DNA from: Sedimentisphaerales bacterium | GTDB taxonomy: Bacteria > Planctomycetota > Phycisphaerae > Sedimentisphaerales > Anaerobacaceae | NCBI GenBank assembly: GCA_016927855.1 | Contig: JAFGLV010000101.1 | Span: 1 to 64,000, forward strand | DNA: 64,000 nucleotides | Direction of reading: 5' to 3' | Shown here: positions 53,347 through 64,000 of the stretch, piece by piece | Layout of the letters: every line of letters begins with the position of its first letter | Position numbering within the stretch: position 1 is the stretch's first letter | Notes under the pieces: model-generated | Told to the model about the DNA's origin: nothing | Databases searched by the model: none | What the model saw: only the letters and a program-made list of their open reading frames with translations | Translations under genes and position numbers: made by a program

Positions 53347-56300
53347 TCATCGGTTCTCCTCCGCAAAGCCGGGCGACCCTCCGGCATGCGCGCTGGCACG
53401 CCATGCATCTTTGCTACTCAGGGCGCTCGGGTCGGTTGCGAAGGGGTCGCTGACCGTTAGCGAATAACCCAGGCCGTCGGTCAGATCGTACCAGTCGTCC
53501 TCGAACCGGAAGTCCGCGATGACTTGCCCGGCCGCGTCGCTCAGCGCGATGCGTTCCCCGCCATTGCTCAGACTGCCGGCGTATTGGCCGGCCACGTTGA
53601 ACCCACCGCCATATCTGGCCTCGAAGGCATCCACATCCTTGACCACCAGGACGTTGTCCGCCGGCGCCAGCTCGACGTTGGGGAAGGTGAAGTCGATGCC
53701 GTCGATGAAGCGCACGAAGTTCAGATTGATGGTCTCGGCGCCGACGTTGGTCAGCTCGATATACTCGGTATTGGGATCGCCAGGCTGACCCGTTTCGATC
53801 GGGTGGTACATGATCTCGCTGATGCGCAGCCTCTCCGCCACCGGGCCGACGGCAAACGTTGCCTCGTGCAGCGCACTCCAGGTCGAGCCTCTCAGAACGC
53901 GTGCCTTGACCTGGGCGCTGCCTCCCAATGTCACCGGCGCGACATAGCGGAAGGCTGTGGAGGATACGCCGGTCGGAGTGCTGCTGCCTGCTCCTTCGGT
54001 CATCACTAACTCGACCGAGATCAGGAAATCGGAACTGGTTGTGGATTCATTCAAGCCTTGAATCGCCAGGAGGTTCCCTCCTTGACGCAGCGCACCGAGG
54101 TGCGGCGTGAGGTCGAACGTTTCGTACTCGATCGCGTCGATGTCCGAGTGGGTCCCGCTTGCCGTCGAATTCCAGGAAGGCGTTCCATTGAACAGGGCGC
54201 GCTGGATCTCGACGCCGTTGAGATAGGCCACGAATCCGTCGTCGTAGCGGACTTTCAGCCTCAGGGCACCGGCGTTCGCGACGTCACCGGCGGAGAGAAC
54301 GAAGGGGATGCGGATAAAGCACGTCGTATTGCGGCCGTACATCCGGCTCTCGACGTCGATGGCAAAGAACGGCTCGTAGCCGGAGCTGCGCTCGTAGCCG
54401 ATCCCTCCGGCGCCGCCGATCCAATCGGAATCATCGAACCCAGCGTCGCTTTTCCAGGTATTGCCGAGAGGGCCCGTTGGGACCAGCGCCCGTTTGGCGG
54501 CGGTCTCCGGGACAAGCACCAGTTCGCTGGTCGGACCGCTCGCAAGACTGGGTTCGCGCGGATCGCGCCCGTCGAGCGTATACCAGATTGTGCCTGCACT
54601 GGCTGACATCAAGATCGCAGCGCCGGAGGCGACGTGCCCACCATGCTGGCGGAGCCCGTCCACGACAAAGTCGGGCGCATCGACGTCGGGATAAAGCCCG
54701 GCGTTGCGCAGCCAGCCCAGCACCTGGTCCGAACGGTTCGGGAAGAAGCTCGCCAGCCTGTCGTTCTGCGTATTCAGCCAATCCTGGCGCGTATAAGGTC
54801 GCGACTGGCGGTTGTCACCCCATCGCGCCGATTCTCCCACGATGGCTCGGTCGATCTGGTGCATGCGCGCCTTGAACCTGTTGGCTGCCTCCGGGTAGCT
54901 GAGCGGACCGCCATGGTAGAACGCGCGATACACGAGGTCGGCGAACCGCAGGCGGTATTCGGGGCTCTGCGCCAGCTTGTCGTGAAGGCCTGAAGGACTT
55001 TCGCCTACGCTATTGGTCCCCTCGAGGGTGTGCTCGGCGTCCCAGGAGTGGAAGCGCCACTTGCCGTCGGGACCGTTGCGGTGCGTCGCATACCAGTTCT
55101 TGCTGGGCCAGTCGTGGTTGCCGCAGAACCAGTTGGCCAGGAGGTAGGAAATGAAGTCATCGACGTCGAGCCGCTCGCAGAGCGTCGCGTAGCGCGCGAC
55201 ATCGGTGGGGTTGGCCGCGACCGCGTTGGCGGCGCTGAGCATGGCGTTGTAGTTGGCGGTCGCATTGGCGCCGGTGCTGTGGTTGATGACACCGCTCGCG
55301 CTGTGCTTGATCGCGTCGTATTCGTCCTCGTCACCGCCGAAGATCTGGGCTGCCCAGGCATGGTCGGGACGCTCGTGGACGTAGTACATTCCCCAATACA
55401 GCCCGTTCAGGTAGAGGTGGGCGTAACCGCCGTGCGGCGAGTGTCCGCCGGTGGCGTTGTGCAAGTCGGCGACGTATTGGTCCTGGATGTAGGTGGCGGT
55501 GTTGCGCTGATCGCCGCCCGGGTGCAGCCAGGAGTGGTTAAGCACCGCGTCGAGGACGACGGTATTGAAGCGCTCGACGGGAGAGTCGGGAAAGAGCCCA
55601 AAGTCGAGCTTGGCCGGTCCGCCGGTCGGTGTGCCGTCGTCGGTCTGGGTCTTGAATCGGGGCCGCAGCGAGAGCTTGAAGGACTTCCACCGCTGAAGGC
55701 TCGTCCCGCCACCGGTGACGCCGCCGGCCATGGCCAGGGCGCAGTTGGCCTGCGCGGACCGGCCGGTATTCGGGTCGATGTACTCGAACGAGCACACCTT
55801 CTCGGGCGCTTCGGAGACGCGATAGGTCAGGTCCTCGTTGACATATATCCCCTCTGCGCCGAACAGATCGTCCCGGTAGAACGCCAGCGAGATGGTGGGG
55901 ACGGCTTCAAGATCGGCCGGTTCGAGCCGGTTACTCGGCGCCGCGTGGTCGACGATCTCCAGATCGACCTGGTAGTCGGCGAGTACGCTGCCGGAATACG
56001 ACCCGCCAGGCCATATACTCGGATAGCCGGACGGCGTCACCTGAGCGCCGGTGGCGGGATTCGTGGCTTGGCGCATGACGTCGTCGGGGAAGATATATGT
56101 GTGGGTGTCCACTTTCGTGGGTTGGCAGTCTTCTTTGAACGCCATGGCGCGGAGGCAGGTCGTCCTGGATATCGGGATCGGTCCGGCGTAGATCGTGCCT
56201 CGCCCCGGCGCCGGCGTGCTGCCGTCGAGGGTATAGACGATCGTGGCGCCGGCGGTCTCCGTCGCGATAGCTACGGCGAACGGTCCATCGTAGAAACCGC

Positions 56301-56487
56301 GCTGGTGGCTGAGCTGGATGTTGGTGACCGCCGGGTCGTCAGAGGCCGGATCTTCGGGGATGAACGACTTCCCGGCTTGCGCCGCGGTCACCTGGGCATG
56401 CCCGGCCCACTTCAGGGCCGACAGCAGGCAGAGTAGGCAGACCATGGTGGCGGTAAGCCGGCGTAATGCGTCCACGAATCTCGGCAC
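53347..56487 (-). CDS. CotH-kinase/lamin-tail domain exported protein
   Basis: This 1046-residue protein has a signal peptide (RRLTATMVCLLCLLSALKWAGHA) after a GTG start at 56487, chosen over a longer frame at 56538 because it has a Shine-Dalgarno-like GAGAAGAAG upstream. Domains in order are a chitobiase/hexosaminidase C-terminal-like strand domain (YDGPFAVAIATETAGATIVY), a CotH-kinase-like core with WGMYYVHERPDHAW and WRFHSWDAEHTLEG, a second chitobiase-like piece, a jelly-roll region (VRYDDGFVAYLNGVEI) and a C-terminal lamin-tail domain (LRISEIMYHPIETG). It is probably a cell-surface or spore-coat-like protein kinase or adhesion protein; activity is not shown. Confidence 0.85.
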   Translation of the reverse strand: MPRFVDALRRLTATMVCLLCLLSALKWAGHAQVTAAQAGKSFIPEDPASDDPAVTNIQLSHQRGFYDGPFAVAIATETAGATIVYTLDGSTPAPGRGTIYAGPIPISRTTCLRAMAFKEDCQPTKVDTHTYIFPDDVMRQATNPATGAQVTPSGYPSIWPGGSYSGSVLADYQVDLEIVDHAAPSNRLEPADLEAVPTISLAFYRDDLFGAEGIYVNEDLTYRVSEAPEKVCSFEYIDPNTGRSAQANCALAMAGGVTGGGTSLQRWKSFKLSLRPRFKTQTDDGTPTGGPAKLDFGLFPDSPVERFNTVVLDAVLNHSWLHPGGDQRNTATYIQDQYVADLHNATGGHSPHGGYAHLYLNGLYWGMYYVHERPDHAWAAQIFGGDEDEYDAIKHSASGVINHSTGANATANYNAMLSAANAVAANPTDVARYATLCERLDVDDFISYLLANWFCGNHDWPSKNWYATHRNGPDGKWRFHSWDAEHTLEGTNSVGESPSGLHDKLAQSPEYRLRFADLVYRAFYHGGPLSYPEAANRFKARMHQIDRAIVGESARWGDNRQSRPYTRQDWLNTQNDRLASFFPNRSDQVLGWLRNAGLYPDVDAPDFVVDGLRQHGGHVASGAAILMSASAGTIWYTLDGRDPREPSLASGPTSELVLVPETAAKRALVPTGPLGNTWKSDAGFDDSDWIGGAGGIGYERSSGYEPFFAIDVESRMYGRNTTCFIRIPFVLSAGDVANAGALRLKVRYDDGFVAYLNGVEIQRALFNGTPSWNSTASGTHSDIDAIEYETFDLTPHLGALRQGGNLLAIQGLNESTTSSDFLISVELVMTEGAGSSTPTGVSSTAFRYVAPVTLGGSAQVKARVLRGSTWSALHEATFAVGPVAERLRISEIMYHPIETGQPGDPNTEYIELTNVGAETINLNFVRFIDGIDFTFPNVELAPADNVLVVKDVDAFEARYGGGFNVAGQYAGSLSNGGERIALSDAAGQVIADFRFEDDWYDLTDGLGYSLTVSDPFATDPSALSSKDAWRASAHAGGSPGFAEENR

Positions 56488-56636
56488 CTTCTTCTCTCTT
56501 ACGTCGTCTGTATGGGCAGAAACACTTCGCGCCGCCACCGCCGGGAGCTGGCCAGACCTTTACCAGCCTTGTTCAGCTTAACATACTGACAGCCCACGAG
56601 TCAATATCCGAACGCGGCGGGAAATCGCCTTGTCAC

Positions 56637-59153
56637 TCACCAGGAGGGCAAAATGATGGTCCGGAGCATCTGGAATTGCAGTTCGTAGACCTGGCGCAAC
56701 TGCGGGTCCGGCAGCACGTCGCCGGTCCCGCCCATGTTGGTGTCGACAAAACGGGACCCGAATCCGACCACGGTAACGCTTCCATCCCCGAATCGCGCGG
56801 TCGCGGCCACCGGGCGGCCGTTGATGTGAACCAGGGGCCGCCCGCCTTCGATTTCGCAGGCCGCGTCGGCCGAGACGGTGGCAGGCCAGCCGACGGGTGT
56901 TTCCAGCGGGCCCGCCAGGCGAGTCTCGCGCGACACGCTCAGGCCGAAGGCGCCAAGCAAGGCGTTGGCGGTCGAGAAAGCGTTGGCGGGCGAATCGAGA
57001 ACCAGCACCTTGCCGCCGGCCGCGACGTAGTCGGCCAGTCGCTTGCGAAAGTCCGCCGAGACTTCGTGATTCGGATGCAGGAAGATCAAGGCGTCGCCGG
57101 TGAAGGCGTCGTCGGCTTCTCGGCGCGAGGTGAAGTACCCCAGTCGCAGGATCCACCGCTCGAAGATACCGAAGCCGTCGGGCCGGCCCGCGATGAACCC
57201 GCTCTTGGATAAGGGAGCGTCACAGACGGTTCGGTCGATGACTACGTGCGTGAAGGGACGTTTGGGTTTGGGCGCAGGCATCGAAGCACGATGCAACCCG
57301 TGGACGGTCAGAGTGGCGGCGCTGAGTCCGAGCGTCGCGGCGCTGAACAAGACGAGCAGGCCGCCGGTCCATTTCGAGGCCAGCAGCAAGGCCAGGAGAA
57401 TGAGCGCGGCGCCCAATCCCATGAGAAATGGTCGCGTGTCGGACGCAGGGCTGCGGTGGTTGAGCCATGCGAGCATGCCCAGCATCAACTCGGCTTTCCC
57501 AGGCTCGAAGACGGAGAAATTCGAGAAGATCGTCGAGTCGGTAAACGCGGCCACGCGACCGGCGCCGCGCGAGGTGGTCCAGAGTTGGATGAATGCGCCG
57601 TAACGCGATTCGGCGCGGTCTTCGACCTGAGGATAGTAGTTGCTCACGTGATAATCGGCCGGCATGCTCCGCAGTCCCGTCGCTTGAATCGCCGCACGAC
57701 CCTTGCTCGTTCCCAGAGCGATCGAGCATGAGACCGCGAAGTCCAGCGGCGGCATGTGCTGTACGGTGGGATGCGCCGCGAGTGGTGGGCGATAGACTTG
57801 GTTGAAGACGTCGTCGATATCGAACAGGCAGTCGTAGCGAAAGCGAAAGCCGAAACATGCAGCCATATCGTTGAGATAGGTCCCCGAGTTGAACACATTG
57901 GTGTGCTCGCCGATCAGGAGCAGCCCGCCGCCGTGCTCGACGAATCGCTCGATGTGCGCGATTTCCTGGGTGTCGTATCGCACGGTCGGGACCTTGACCA
58001 CGAGCACGTCGCACTCGGTCAGCGTCTCGGCGTCGATGGGCTGGGTGAGCCTGTCCATCTCGTAGAAGCGCGAGCAGTAGTCGTAGATACAGGCATAGTT
58101 GTATCCGGATTCCTGCCCGTACCAGTTGGGGTCGTAAGGCCGGTCGGTCCGCTCCCAGTTCGAGCGATGCTCGTCCACCCAGACACGCCCCTCTTTGGAA
58201 GGGCCCGAAGGTTCCCAGAGCAGCCCGGTCGCGAGAAGCAACGATCCTGCACACGCCAACGTGGCAGAGATCGCGCGCACCAGAGGGCTGAGGCTCGTCG
58301 CCTGCGTCTGTTTACGCGGAGGAACCGAGCCGGCGCGAAAACATCGCAGCGCCAGCAGGACCGGACCGGCCAGCAACGCGAGGTTGACCCACGGGTTCCA
58401 GAACTGGTTCATCAGGACCAGGGGAGCGTCGTATGCGGTCCGCAGGGCGCGGTGCATGTAGATGGCCAGCAGCAGGCCTGCACGCACAGGCAACCACAGT
58501 GCGACCAGGATTGCGAGGCCAAACGCCGACGCCAGCGCGCGTGCTATCCGTCTGGATCGTGACTCATGCGCGAGCGTAACGAGACAGAACATGGCGGCGC
58601 CGCCGGCGACGAACGCCACCGTCGTCGGGTCCAGCAGCAGCTCCCAGGTGGCGCCGAGTTGATGGACGCGACGAATCGAGCCCAGCGCGATCGTGTTGCC
58701 GTCAAGGGCAGCGTCCATACCCAGGAGCCTCGCGACGCGATAGACCAGGTGAGCAAGGAAACCGGGCAGTTCGTGAGATCGCGCCGTGAGCGTCTGGTAG
58801 GCCAGCAGCGTCAACGCCTGAGCGGCCAGTATGGCGCCTGAGGTCATGGCTGCAACACCGAGCCTGCGAGGCCAGGTCCTGGGGACCGGTGCCGCGGCCA
58901 ACAGCAGGCCTGTGAGTACCAGGATCGCGCCCGCACGATACGGCCAGGGAGCGACCATCACTGCCGGGACCAGCATGGCCGCGGCTATGACCGATTCGAT
59001 ACGCGTAGGTGTATAGACGGTTGCGCCGGTCAGAAGCCCTGTGCCGGCCAGAACGAGCACAGCCCACACGGGCCAGTTCGGGTCGTGGTAGTAACCGAGC
59101 CCGAAAAGCCACGAGGCACTCAGCAACGCCAGGCCGACCCACGCACGCTTCAT
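56637..59153 (-). CDS. Large membrane protein with ThuA/GATase-like domains, second of a pair
   Basis: This 838-residue protein has about ten N-terminal spans (through residue about 310), an extracytoplasmic GATase/ThuA-like domain (DVLVVKVPTVRYDTQ, IERFVEHGGGLLLIGEH), more spans near 575-625, and a second such domain (ALIFLHPNHEVSADF, LADYVAAGGKVLVLDS). The layout resembles DUF4350/GldG-like auxiliary proteins of gliding or ABC-2 systems, but no exact family is assigned. The ATG at 59153 has AGGAGGTG directly upstream and overlaps the previous stop by 4 nt, so it is translated with the paralogue. Confidence 0.75.
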   Translation of the reverse strand: MKRAWVGLALLSASWLFGLGYYHDPNWPVWAVLVLAGTGLLTGATVYTPTRIESVIAAAMLVPAVMVAPWPYRAGAILVLTGLLLAAAPVPRTWPRRLGVAAMTSGAILAAQALTLLAYQTLTARSHELPGFLAHLVYRVARLLGMDAALDGNTIALGSIRRVHQLGATWELLLDPTTVAFVAGGAAMFCLVTLAHESRSRRIARALASAFGLAILVALWLPVRAGLLLAIYMHRALRTAYDAPLVLMNQFWNPWVNLALLAGPVLLALRCFRAGSVPPRKQTQATSLSPLVRAISATLACAGSLLLATGLLWEPSGPSKEGRVWVDEHRSNWERTDRPYDPNWYGQESGYNYACIYDYCSRFYEMDRLTQPIDAETLTECDVLVVKVPTVRYDTQEIAHIERFVEHGGGLLLIGEHTNVFNSGTYLNDMAACFGFRFRYDCLFDIDDVFNQVYRPPLAAHPTVQHMPPLDFAVSCSIALGTSKGRAAIQATGLRSMPADYHVSNYYPQVEDRAESRYGAFIQLWTTSRGAGRVAAFTDSTIFSNFSVFEPGKAELMLGMLAWLNHRSPASDTRPFLMGLGAALILLALLLASKWTGGLLVLFSAATLGLSAATLTVHGLHRASMPAPKPKRPFTHVVIDRTVCDAPLSKSGFIAGRPDGFGIFERWILRLGYFTSRREADDAFTGDALIFLHPNHEVSADFRKRLADYVAAGGKVLVLDSPANAFSTANALLGAFGLSVSRETRLAGPLETPVGWPATVSADAACEIEGGRPLVHINGRPVAATARFGDGSVTVVGFGSRFVDTNMGGTGDVLPDPQLRQVYELQFQMLRTIILPSW

Positions 59154-61816
59154 CGCGACACCTCCTGCGCGGCGTCGTTTGGCGGCGCGCTCTGCAACGC
59201 CGGTGGAATCCACACCTGCTCGTCACGCAACAGCGCAATCAGCCAGCGCCAAAAGTCGGCGTTTTCTCGCAGACCCTCGAAAGGCGTTCCGTCCTCAAGC
59301 TCCAGGTTTTGGTTCGTCGCGAAGAAAGTGTCGCCGATGAGGACGACCTTGCCGCTCCCGACGCGACGCAGCACGACGACGGGCTGGTTGTCGCGTCCGT
59401 AGGCGATCACTCGTGCGTTCGGGTCGTCGCACCGAACCGGCCAGGCGGCGTGGAAGCGGACGTAGACGCGTTGGCCCTCTGCCTCAAGGTACGGCGACTT
59501 GAAGTGCCCCAGCGGTGCGGGTTCGGTGCCGTCGTCGGCTCCGATCCCAGACCCGAACCGTCTCAGTAGCGATTGGCTCGCACTTGCCCGATCGTATCCG
59601 ATGGTCAGGACGAGGAGGCCGCCGCGCTCGACGAATTGCTCGACGGTCTCGACCTCGTTCGCGGAGAACCCGCGTGAGCGTGCGCCGCAGATCAGCAGGC
59701 CCGCGCGTTGCAGTCTCGGTGGCGTCAATTCGGCCAGCGAAAGTGGCATATAGCCATTTCGCATGAGCGTCAGAGCCAGGCCGCCAGTGCCGTCGGGACG
59801 CCATGATTCGCCGCTATAGGCCGAGAGCCCCGAGGCGTCGAGGTATGCCAGGTTGTTCGGCGCTGTGATCCGTCCGTCGGGCAGCAAGTCCGCTGTCGTC
59901 GGAACAGCCGCCAGGCACAGCATCAGGGATACGCTCAGGCCGACGGCGACCAAAGCCGTCCGCCATGGGCTCGAGCGTCTGCACAGCAGCACGATCAGAA
60001 ACGCGCCGACCACGATTCCAACGAACTGGCGCCAGGCCGGATGCGCATTTCGTCGACCGGCCAGATAGGCGAAGAGTCGTGAGGTGAAGACGTGCGAGGA
60101 GACGTTGATGCCGTTGGACAGGCTCGACGTGTCGCCAAAGACGACGACACGGCCTTTGCCAAAGGGTTGCTCCGCGGCCAGCACGATGTCCCCGAGCTTC
60201 TCCGGAGTGTCGTAACGGCTGTTTCCCATCAACGCTCGGTCGCTGGCTTCGTCACCGTGATCGGCCCAGCCCCAACGTCCCACCAGCAAGGGGCGCGCGG
60301 GCCAATCGGCCTGGACCGACGCGCCGATGACGACTCCGAACTCGTTGCGATCGTCGTCGATTCCGGCCGTGGCAGGATGTTGGAGAGGCTCGTACGAGTG
60401 CAGCCAGCCACCGACGGCAAAGGTGGCCGAGTCGAACCGCACGCGCATCGCGGTTGGAGCCAGCACCTCGTTGAAGCGGTTGCTGCCGTTGGCGTCGACC
60501 GTGGTGTGCTCGCCCAGGACCAGGAGTGAGCCGCCTTGCCGAACGAAGCTGTGGATGCGATCGAGTTGGTCGTCGGACCAGGGTTCGTCGGGGAAGATGA
60601 GCACCAGCGCGTCGGCGTCGTTCAGGTCGGCATCCGACAGATCGGGTGAGACGACGCACCGTGCGCCAAGGCTCTCGACGAACGCAGGCAGCATCCCGTA
60701 CATGCCGCTCGCCAGACGGCCGTACATGTCATGCGTCGGCTTGAGCCAGTTCAGAAAGCCTTTTTCGTAAAAGACGATCTTCTTTCCCTCAAGGGTCAAG
60801 GGCCTGGGGTGGAACGCGGTCGTCACCGGCAGCAGCAGGGCCATCGCCAGCGCGGCGGCTCCCAGCGCCAATCGCGCCGCGGCCCAGGCAACGGGTCTAC
60901 CGGTCTGTTCGATCTCCACGAGAAAGCTCCACCGCGACCAGCGGAGCATGGCGGCGGCAATCACCAGTTGGATGGTGCAAGCCAGGACCGGGACATTCCA
61001 CGGCACCGCCTGGCGCAGGAGCCCAGCCAGGAACGAGGGGCCCGAGCCCTGAGCCAGGGTGGTTTCCAGGTGGGGGATATGTGACAGAACGATCAGATAG
61101 AGCACATGGCCGACGAGGATGGCCGCGAATCCGTACGCCGACCGCGCTGCTCGTGGTAGACTGGTAGACCGTGCGTACAAAGCCCACAGAACGGCCATAA
61201 CGATGAGGCAGTCCAGACCCGCGAAGGTTGCACCCAAGTACATGCGGCGCCCTATCGCCACGCCCACAAGCCCACCGAAGCCCTGACCGGCACGGTCGGC
61301 CGCCAGCCACATCCAGGGGATGGAGGTCCGACCGAAGTGGTACAAGCCCAGGACAGCTACCGCCACCGCGGCCGCCTGCAAAGCGTCCCTGTTCTGTTCC
61401 TTCGCCATGAGCGACAGAAACGCCAGAACGAGCGCCGGCGCCATGATATTGGCGGTGGGTGCCGCGAGAAAAACCAGATACGCGGCGACGCCGGCGACCA
61501 GCGGGGTCAGTGCCGTCCGCGGCCAGCACCGCGACGGACAGATCCCTGGCGCCAGCAAGGCTGCGCCCAGCGCCACGAGCGTCAGCGCGCGCCGGAGAGG
61601 ATGTGCCAGCAGCCCGATCGATCCGGCCGCAATCCAGGCAGCCATAAGACAAGCCAGCACCGCGATGACCGCGCCGAAGGCGACGGGAGCAGCCCCTTCA
61701 ACGCTGGGCTGCCCTGAGGGACACAGAGACTCGATTGGCCTTTCTTCAGGGTCGTGCACAGGCAGATTATCCCTGGGTTCCCGCAAATCGGCAACATGAA
61801 ACGGGCGCAACACCAC
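59150..61816 (-). CDS. Large membrane protein with ThuA/GATase-like domains, first of a pair
   Basis: This 888-residue protein has about ten spans in the first 350 residues and a GATase/ThuA-like extracytoplasmic domain (DALVLIFPDEPWSDDQ, VRQGGSLLVLGEHTTVD). Further spans follow near 610-650, then a second domain (RAGLLICGARSRGFSANE, VERGGLLVLTIGYDR). Domain order and size match the downstream gene, so they are tandem paralogues. The start is uncertain: a GTG at 61816 gives a 888-residue product and a GTG at 61762 with CAGGGA upstream would be shorter and more leader-like. The two probably form one complex in the membrane, with unknown role. Confidence 0.72.
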   Translation of the reverse strand: MVLRPFHVADLREPRDNLPVHDPEERPIESLCPSGQPSVEGAAPVAFGAVIAVLACLMAAWIAAGSIGLLAHPLRRALTLVALGAALLAPGICPSRCWPRTALTPLVAGVAAYLVFLAAPTANIMAPALVLAFLSLMAKEQNRDALQAAAVAVAVLGLYHFGRTSIPWMWLAADRAGQGFGGLVGVAIGRRMYLGATFAGLDCLIVMAVLWALYARSTSLPRAARSAYGFAAILVGHVLYLIVLSHIPHLETTLAQGSGPSFLAGLLRQAVPWNVPVLACTIQLVIAAAMLRWSRWSFLVEIEQTGRPVAWAAARLALGAAALAMALLLPVTTAFHPRPLTLEGKKIVFYEKGFLNWLKPTHDMYGRLASGMYGMLPAFVESLGARCVVSPDLSDADLNDADALVLIFPDEPWSDDQLDRIHSFVRQGGSLLVLGEHTTVDANGSNRFNEVLAPTAMRVRFDSATFAVGGWLHSYEPLQHPATAGIDDDRNEFGVVIGASVQADWPARPLLVGRWGWADHGDEASDRALMGNSRYDTPEKLGDIVLAAEQPFGKGRVVVFGDTSSLSNGINVSSHVFTSRLFAYLAGRRNAHPAWRQFVGIVVGAFLIVLLCRRSSPWRTALVAVGLSVSLMLCLAAVPTTADLLPDGRITAPNNLAYLDASGLSAYSGESWRPDGTGGLALTLMRNGYMPLSLAELTPPRLQRAGLLICGARSRGFSANEVETVEQFVERGGLLVLTIGYDRASASQSLLRRFGSGIGADDGTEPAPLGHFKSPYLEAEGQRVYVRFHAAWPVRCDDPNARVIAYGRDNQPVVVLRRVGSGKVVLIGDTFFATNQNLELEDGTPFEGLRENADFWRWLIALLRDEQVWIPPALQSAPPNDAAQEVSR

Positions 61817-61908: not shown

Positions 61909-64000
61909 CTACCGGGCGGCTGCGATCGTGACGTACTCCGCGACCGTGGGGCACTTGGCTTCGACGACAGGGCAAGGTGCGGCCGAAATCGCCGGCACGG
62001 CTCTCTGCAACACCGTCCCATCCGAGACCGATTGGCACGTGATCGGGCATTGGGTCACGGTCATCGGGCACTGCGTGGAAACCGCTGGACACTCCGTGTG
62101 GATCGGCGGACAGGCGGTAGAAGTTGCCGGACATCGGGTCTCCGTAACCGGGCACTGGGTCACCACGACCGGGCATTCGGTCGGCGTCGGCGGGCATTGA
62201 GTCTGCATCGGCGGACACTGGGTTACCCCGGCGGGACATTGAGTCGCGACCGCCGGGCACTCCGTCTTCATCGCCGGACACTGCGTAGCGGTTGCCGGGC
62301 ACTGCGTCTCGAAGACCGGGCATTTCGTCGCCGTCGTCGGGCAGCTTGTTTCACTTGGCGGACATGCGGTGTGCAGGGCCGGACACTGCGTCACTCCCGC
62401 CGGACATTGCGTTGACACCGCCGGGCACTGGGTCGTCATCGTCGGGCACTGGGTCGCCGTCGCCGGACAGCGGGTCTCCACCGGCGGACATTGCGTTACG
62501 GTGCTCGGGCAGGAGGTCTGGCCCGACGGGCATAGCGTCGTGACGGCCGGGCACTGCGTCACCACCGCCGGACACGTGGTCGCCACGGTTGGGCACAGCG
62601 TCGTAACGGCCGGACACTGCGTTTCCGTTGCCGGGCATTGGGTCTCCACCGCCGGGCAGTACGTGACTGAAGCTGGACGTGACGTGACTTGGTCGGGTGG
62701 GTCCGGCGTGAACAGCAGGCAGAACGCCAGATCGACGGAGTTCATCTCGAGATCGCAAGCCGGGTGGCCCTCCGGATACCGCAGTTCCTGCCACGGGCGC
62801 CGGGAGCTGCTGCCGATGTCCATCGTCGCGTCATCCAGAGAGTGGTCGGGCCAACGGCGCACGCGCCAGCCGAACTGGCCCTCGGTCGTCTCCACTGCAA
62901 CGGCCAGCCAGTAGACCCGTGGCTCTTCGGGTGAGCCCTCCTGGAGAAACGCTTCGCTCGGGTCCACCTTGAGGTCGAGCTGCCAGAGGTTGTGGTCGGC
63001 AGCGCCGATGAGATCGCCGGAACTGACGTCCCACCACCACTGGCCCGCGACGCGCGCAGCGTAGTATAGCGTTTCGTCGAACTGACCCGTAAAGAACACT
63101 TTATCCCACAGGGTCTCCGGAGCCGGTTTCGAGAACGGGTTGCTGCTATCCGGACCCGCCGAACCGGCCGGATCGTCCGGGTGAATACTCACGTGAATCC
63201 TCTTGATCTGGCCGCGCTGCCCGTTCTTCCACGAGCCCCACAGGCGGATCAGGGTCAGCCGATCCTGGCTGGTGCAGACGTAATCATCCGCCAGGACACG
63301 CGGCTCCGCGTTATTGCCATCGACACGAATGTCGATGCCTCCCGGCGTCATGTCCGGCCACTGGCACCATTTCGCGTCCCACGGCGCCGGTGGGCGAATC
63401 CACACCTCGTGGTCTTCCACCTCCCCATCGGGCGCGGCACCGTTCGGATCGAGGCCGCCGGCGGTGCTGATGCGCAGTCTGGCAAACGTGTGTCCCGTCA
63501 CCGCCCGCGACGGCATGTCGAACGGAACGCTGTGAACGCCGTCCGGCAGGAAGGCGTCCACGATCTGCTCGTCGCTTTGCCAGGTGAGGTCGCCATCGAA
63601 ATCGATCCAGCCTTGGACGACTCCGCCGCCTCCGCCGATCCTCAACGTGATCGAGACCGGCTCGCCCAAGACCAGAGGTGGAATCGACACGCCGTTCTCG
63701 TCGCTGTTGGCACTTCCATTGTCACCCAACGCCGCGGGGTGTGGCTGGCCGTCGGCCTCGGCATCGGGTTTATCGAGAGCGGTGCCGAACCAAGGCCCGC
63801 CGAGGACGTGGCTCGCGCCATCGTGAACCGCCAGGGTAGGGTAGCCGGCCGCGTTGGGCTCGTCGGGAGCGTCGCCCCAGTCGTAGACTGCCGGCTCACG
63901 CTCGTTTCTGGGCTCAATGAGGTAGTCCTCGGTTTCGCCGTACTGATAGCCACCCGCCGGGCCGGACCCTCCCGCGCCGGGATCTCCCGCCCAAGGGCGC
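61909..64000 (-). CDS. GEVED-domain exported protein with 30 Cys-Pro heptads (5' partial)
   Basis: The minus-strand frame is open from 61909 to the right edge, so the N-terminus lies outside the window; at least 697 codons are present. Two GEVED-type domains are visible, marked YGETEDYLIEP and PDGEVEDHEVWI, followed by a beta-rich module (ADDYVCTSQDRLTLIRLWGSW) that may bind a ligand. From 62658 to 62029, 30 consecutive heptads of the form C-P-x-x-x-T-x follow (for example CPAVETQ, CPATATQ), then a short tail with two more Cys-Pro units. The GEVED modules imply an exported or surface protein. The Cys density in the repeat is extraordinary, and its role is unknown. Confidence 0.85.
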   Translation of the reverse strand, partial: RPWAGDPGAGGSGPAGGYQYGETEDYLIEPRNEREPAVYDWGDAPDEPNAAGYPTLAVHDGASHVLGGPWFGTALDKPDAEADGQPHPAALGDNGSANSDENGVSIPPLVLGEPVSITLRIGGGGGVVQGWIDFDGDLTWQSDEQIVDAFLPDGVHSVPFDMPSRAVTGHTFARLRISTAGGLDPNGAAPDGEVEDHEVWIRPPAPWDAKWCQWPDMTPGGIDIRVDGNNAEPRVLADDYVCTSQDRLTLIRLWGSWKNGQRGQIKRIHVSIHPDDPAGSAGPDSSNPFSKPAPETLWDKVFFTGQFDETLYYAARVAGQWWWDVSSGDLIGAADHNLWQLDLKVDPSEAFLQEGSPEEPRVYWLAVAVETTEGQFGWRVRRWPDHSLDDATMDIGSSSRRPWQELRYPEGHPACDLEMNSVDLAFCLLFTPDPPDQVTSRPASVTYCPAVETQCPATETQCPAVTTLCPTVATTCPAVVTQCPAVTTLCPSGQTSCPSTVTQCPPVETRCPATATQCPTMTTQCPAVSTQCPAGVTQCPALHTACPPSETSCPTTATKCPVFETQCPATATQCPAMKTECPAVATQCPAGVTQCPPMQTQCPPTPTECPVVVTQCPVTETRCPATSTACPPIHTECPAVSTQCPMTVTQCPITCQSVSDGTVLQRAVPAISAAPCPVVEAKCPTVAEYVTIAAAR
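62029..62658 (-). repeat. In-frame 21-nt tandem repeat coding 30 C-P-x-x-x-T-x heptads
   Basis: The DNA repeats with a 21-nt period. Nearly every unit reads CPxxxT plus one variable residue, and Cys recurs exactly every seventh residue for 30 units. Units differ mainly at the three middle positions and at synonymous sites. It is part of the 61909-64000 coding frame. Confidence 0.92.

Follow-up and report, generated by a model that had tools for sequence, protein, structure and literature searches.

The window (the whole 64,000-nucleotide stretch of DNA that was analysed) ends within a minus-strand gene whose product carries a long array of Cys-Pro units, and the genes for two membrane proteins, A and B, lie directly downstream of it (Table 1). 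The array-protein gene is cut by the window end and its frame continues on the 78,257-bp contig, where the most likely start is the ATG at contig position 65343, giving a protein of 1,144 amino acids with a signal peptide predicted by eye and from hydropathy. Pfam analysis of the full protein gave the domain order DUF7901 - GEVED - GEVED - DUF7901 - array. With 81 bits against a Pfam cut-off of 24.4, the GEVED assignment of the preliminary description held, and DUF7901 was confirmed as well. The array is the C-terminal part of what is predicted to be a secreted GEVED/DUF7901 protein.

Table 1. Features of the array protein and its neighbours (window positions).
Feature	Position	Strand	Remarks
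Array protein gene, 3' part	61909..64000	-	Stop codon at 61911-61909
GEVED (PF20009), second copy	63403..63618	-	Pfam, residues 128-199 of the window part; two copies in full protein
DUF7901 (PF25470), second copy	62719..63372	-	Pfam, E 2.3e-38; two copies in full protein
Two Cys-less leading units	62659..62700	-	PPDQVTS RPASVTY; same register as array
Array, 30 Cys-Pro heptads	62029..62658	-	29 CPxxxTx, then CPITCQS
C-terminal tail	61912..62028	-	Two CP units and a predicted short helix
Protein A	59150..61816	-	About 10 predicted TM segments; two extracytoplasmic DUF4350/ABC_transp_aux/GIFT (GldG-like) domains
Protein B	56637..59153	-	Paralogue of A in layout; two DUF4350/ABC_transp_aux/GIFT domains

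Reading along the minus strand from 62658 down to 62029, Cys-Pro recurs 30 times at a spacing of exactly seven residues, with no slip of register. The preliminary description had counted 30 uninterrupted C-P-x-x-x-T-x units; its count and spacing of Cys-Pro stand, but only 29 of the 30 units fit CPxxxTx, the last having T at position 4 and an additional Cys at position 5. The two further Cys-Pro units that it had noticed in the tail are indeed present, i.e., CPVVEAK (61974-61954) and CPTVAEY (61953-61933), both lacking T at position 6. Homologues share the lead-in T..P...T.CP before the array, and orthologues have similar tails (CPTVEAECLTVADYLALASSTR and others). Array ends (L039, L040, L093, L115 and window positions 62029-62049) tend toward a CPxxC-like unit (CPITC, CPATC, CPPTC, CPSSSC, CPRC) and then a conserved CPxvEaxCxTvadYl-type tail.

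When the array composition was shuffled 5,000 times, the longest consecutive run of Cys-Pro heptads was four, compared with the 30 observed, and the array is therefore not due to chance. The DNA identity between units has a mean of 0.60 and does not fall with the distance between them. Agreement at codon third bases was 0.49 for Cys and 0.39 for Thr, i.e., near random synonymous use with invariant amino acids; Pro codons were mostly CCG (0.80), and His is rare in the array. A DNA identity between units of only about 60%, together with the scrambling of third bases, indicates that C, P and T have been held by selection rather than copied by recent duplication, and the array is, to judge from its codons, old and under purifying selection. 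The longest exact repeat within it is 15 nt, which makes assembly collapse unlikely, and there is no N run; in these respects, as in unit identity, the assembled sequence bears no sign of an artefact. The arrays of three relatives (L046, L101, L030) contain internal N runs with frame shifts afterwards, i.e., scaffold gaps caused by the repeats, and their unit counts are lower bounds.

Relatives were found with a four-unit DNA pattern applied to the GTDB genome collection, the matches to which represent a lower bound, and by searches of the relatives themselves. Such a pattern search had been proposed in the preliminary description. The same array occurs in at least 34 genomes, mainly of Planctomycetota and Verrucomicrobiota. 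Among the matches listed, the carriers labelled as Planctomycetota belong to Phycisphaerae, Sedimentisphaerales, Pirellulales and Brocadiia, and those from Verrucomicrobiota comprise L064, L049, L096, L107 and an Akkermansiaceae member (L029), with L091 from Victivallales; a few further bins among these matches bear other labels (Deltaproteobacteria for L102, Nealsonbacteria for L103), an assignment that may be wrong. In 1,601 seven-residue units from 33 loci, for which C at position 1 was fixed by construction, Thr6 was kept in 96% and Pro2 in 90%, and T-x-C was the best-conserved feature. The arrays range from about 22 units to over 140. Some array proteins have the GEVED/DUF7901 front in common (48-57% identity, alignment A2), and several are essentially a signal peptide and an array only (e.g., L110, L129, L090, L059). 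The strict heptad pattern is rare within the phylum sample, being present in 7 of 392 Planctomycetota genomes, some of which (G310, G105) are probably chance matches; within a set of 60 relatives, the array was convincingly present in four (G000, G018, G030, G034). Runs of Cys-Pro that DNA pattern scans picked up in actinobacterial, cyanobacterial and viral contigs were dismissed as chance, consisting of 3-8 units or of simple DNA repeats, e.g., CPALATA. The preliminary description had recognized no named family for the array, and indeed no Pfam or NCBIfam model covers it. A PDB sequence search returned weak ribonuclease A matches alone (E 0.24 and up), and literature searches on Cys heptads in planctomycetes yielded nothing relevant. 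The array is a genuine, conserved and unnamed Cys-repeat family.

The ATG of the B gene at 59153 (the ORF list has an alternative, earlier GTG at 59213) overlaps the stop codon of A as ATGA (59153-59150). Such stop/start overlaps are typical of coupled operon genes and a sign of translational coupling. Hydropathy gave about 9-10 hydrophobic segments for each protein, and DUF4350 or ABC_transp_aux matched above the Pfam cut-off in both A (E 1e-22) and B (E 4e-16). Neither reached the GldG equivalog TIGR03521, the best score being 53.8 bits, for a B homologue, against a cut-off of 389.85. An exosortase-like N-terminus, suggested by eye, was rejected when neither the whole proteins nor their N-terminal halves matched a Pfam or NCBIfam exosortase (EpsH-like) model. 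Neither an ATPase nor an outer-membrane component could be identified in the array-A-B cassette. By tblastn against the fetched loci, A/B were found beside arrays in Planctomycetota, Verrucomicrobiota and Victivallales, with up to 68% identity over a stretch. A CotH kinase-like protein with chitobiase-C and lamin-tail domains is encoded after B (window 53347-56538); a homologue lies near the array in L064 (5593-7179) but in none of the other loci, and the gene is not conserved at this position after B.

These two conserved neighbours, which the preliminary description had overlooked, are the strongest clue to function. Protein A is present in exactly the four of 60 relatives that carry the array and in no others, a coincidence with 1 chance in 487,635 if the two were unrelated, ignoring shared ancestry. 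Among the matches listed, 32 of the 34 long-array genomes have A/B, the exceptions (G442, G455) being bins of 1.5 and 2.3 Mb, and in 29 of the 34, the distance between A/B and the array is no more than about 5 kb. In G447, a transposase follows the array and A/B are on a different contig; in G445 and G446, A/B are located elsewhere, away from the array. As a background level, A was found in 17 of 392 genomes sampled from Planctomycetota and in 6 of 388 from Verrucomicrobiota. The association between array and A/B is strong, although shared ancestry keeps it from being a formal probability.

The heptad array is replaced at the same place by other periodic-Cys proteins or by RHS proteins. In the two phylum samples, A is accompanied by a periodic-Cys ORF at a distance of roughly 4 kb or less in 13 of the 23 genomes that have it. 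These are heptads in seven genomes (G000, G100, G109, G161, G448, G634 and G747, the last assigned from a short contig end with four Cys-7-Cys pairs), C[ND]GxxT hexads in G390, CxxTLDPNDPR 11-mers with 135 Cys in G404, CSV/CSx repeats in G092, G405 and G262, and, in G673, Cys pentads with which an RHS protein ends. The second A/B pair of G453 stands beside a 14-mer array (CQGGGYTSDPALPE). No periodic-Cys gene was found nearby in the other ten of the 23, three of which (G258, G313, G345) have RHS proteins without an array instead. When the same criterion was applied to 714 kb of control sequence, it returned, apart from the ORF of the window itself, two more, and the contigs of both had been selected for the CP pattern. 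That the repeat types are exchangeable beside A/B speaks for even spacing of Cys as the feature that counts, over heptad geometry, haem binding by Cys-Pro or a single fold. What these proteins share looks like evenly spaced Cys, and the heptad itself is not essential, giving way elsewhere to periods of 5, 6, 11 and 14 at the same position. The swapping of at least five unrelated repeats at one gene position suggests that periodic Cys is itself selected, which would aid the design of cross-linkable protein materials. In a Verrucomicrobiota locus (L250:4000-9000), an RHS protein with about 36 terminal Cys pentads of CxxSx type directly precedes A/B. An ORF at L196:9126-11633 contains two arrays of Cys hexads. 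Behind each comes a hydrophobic stretch and then an Arg-rich end, an arrangement that resembles a C-terminal sorting signal.

AlphaFold2 gave no secondary structure for the array, with a mean pLDDT of 39, both with and without a 16-sequence alignment. Such a score, which says little either way, would fit an extended chain without proving it. It lends no support to the ladder of thiols along one helix face envisaged earlier, and a beta-solenoid, considered for an alternating in/out pattern, was dropped as the models show no strands. The term 'stalk' is likewise doubtful for an array that is C-terminal here and makes up essentially the whole secreted protein in several genomes. Disulfide cross-linking would be the obvious use of the array Cys. 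The DsbA, VKOR and Thioredoxin_4 families were, however, not found in G000, G030 (99% complete) and G034, and were found only in G018, which weakens the case for classical, enzymatic disulfide formation. None of these four genomes has a haem-copper oxidase, leaving an oxic lifestyle unsupported. The Cys might instead be oxidized after export or by another oxidase, or be cross-linked through metal.

The best explanation, to which we give an even chance, is that the array protein is the secreted subunit of a cross-linkable structural polymer, which a membrane complex of A and B, with its GldG-like extracytoplasmic domains, would export, anchor or assemble. The protein would form a long, mostly unfolded chain with Cys at fixed intervals; outside the cell, these Cys would become cross-links between chains or to another surface component, and a tough surface layer or fibre would result. 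Cross-linking, put forward in the preliminary description, thus stays the leading idea. The array, its signal peptide, the selection on C, P and T, the conserved array-A-B gene order and the exchange of repeats at one position were all observed, as was the co-occurrence with A/B; a surface location, export, cross-linking and a role for A/B are inferred.

Planctomycetes have long been described as having disulfide-rich protein walls, with the YTV proteins as the suspected material in Planctomycetales. The YTV wall proteins (PF07639) are the known system closest in role to the arrays, being likewise secreted, repetitive, Cys-rich and planctomycete. They were recovered from planctomycete wall preparations and are reported only from Planctomycetales (PMC8567305; PMC10632474), so that a Cys-rich proteinaceous envelope has a precedent in the phylum. 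PF07639 did not match the array proteins, and nothing in G000, G018, G030 or G034 scored above its cut-off; the arrays differ in their repeat, in their link to A/B and in their range, which takes in Phycisphaerae, other Planctomycetota and Verrucomicrobiota. They make up a second Cys-periodic exoprotein family, unrelated to YTV, in lineages reported to be without it, and tied to two specific membrane proteins. For A/B, the nearest comparison is with GldG of gliding motility and the T9SS and with the predicted archaeal DUF4350/arCOG01314 secretion complex, where DUF4350, ABC_transp_aux and GldG-like extracytoplasmic domains likewise belong to membrane proteins whose genes adjoin those of large secreted proteins. 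DUF4350 proteins have been predicted from archaeal gene neighbourhoods to act in a GldG-related secretion complex, near secreted and S-layer proteins (PMC5898192), and A/B would fit as handlers of large exoproteins. They differ in that each has about 9-10 TM segments and a pair of such domains, and no counterpart of the archaeal AAA+ ATPase and vWA protein was recognized among those of the A/B neighbours that were scanned. GEVED domains are found in fibrillar adhesins (PMC10952558), and CshA-type adhesins resemble the array protein in carrying GEVED on a secreted protein; in the array protein, however, Pfam reports DUF7901 and GEVED only, with neither CshA NR2, the ligand-binding domain that partners GEVED, nor an LPXTG or OmpA anchor, and many array relatives have no GEVED. 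The RHS/YD-repeat exoproteins that replace the array protein beside A/B, one of them with C-terminal Cys pentads, have no sequence relation to the heptads. A weak match of the Pneumocystis major surface glycoprotein family (PF02349) to one Verrucomicrobia array (L064, E 1.4e-5) is probably due to composition; no single stretch passes, and the window protein has no match. Somewhat more tentatively than for the polymer subunit, we suggest that Planctomycetota and Verrucomicrobiota have a surface-assembly system not described before, in which a GldG-like polytopic pair would handle exoproteins that share only long, evenly spaced Cys repeats of independent types (period 5, 6, 7, 11 or 14), or RHS repeats, and, in anaerobes that lack DsbA/VKOR, would build an envelope with covalent or metal cross-links.

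The array might instead serve as an extracellular store of free thiols that bind soft metals or sulfur species, such as sulfide, in anoxic habitats. Thiols could stay reduced in the three of four genomes that lack both DsbA/VKOR and haem-copper oxidase, and some array carriers are labelled as sludge-digester bins. We consider such a store unlikely on account of the Cys spacings of 5, 6, 7, 11 and 14 without CxC or CxxC clusters, the scarcity of His and the lack of any metal transport or resistance gene conserved beside the array in the loci read. Cys spaced in this way are not known from metal-thiolate proteins.

The array could equally be mainly an attachment or recognition tail, in which A/B (or the wall) would bind the repeats and hold a GEVED/DUF7901 adhesin at the surface, the Cys mattering only locally. 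Its C-terminal position after the GEVED domains and its variable unit number are in keeping with such a tail, but several array proteins have no other domain to be attached and Cys retention is very strict; we judge it no likelier than the thiol store. Chemical modification is more doubtful again, i.e., Thr that carries O-glycans or that, after dehydration, is linked to Cys in methyllanthionine, or haem bound by Cys-Pro. The strongly kept Thr two residues before each Cys and a dTDP-rhamnose pathway gene upstream on the contig speak for it; against it, no lanthionine synthetase or haem-handling gene was seen among the neighbours read, the rml genes are not common to G018 and G030, and other repeat types beside A/B have no CP. 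Functionless expansion or assembly error is scarcely credible: tandem repeats expand easily and N runs interrupt the arrays in the assemblies of several relatives, but the units have diverged while keeping C, P and T, and the same array has the same neighbours in many independent genomes.

In G000, the dTDP-rhamnose-type genes flank the array gene on the side away from A/B (L022:8514-9122 onward, beyond the window; Pfam dTDP_sugar_isom); they were also seen by eye at L077:224-2891, and are not in G018 or G030; a link to glycosylation is possible. In several genomes, A/B are joined by a further gene, which encodes CarboxypepD_reg domains (L196:6330-9095, L197:6530-9151, L057:4755-6638, L200:10694-12001). 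Finally, in exported proteins of the cassettes (L031, L106, L196, L204, L237, L240, L241), the signal peptide is followed by a shared N-terminal motif resembling [DNS]SPLYxxxLxxA, which is possibly a recognition signal.
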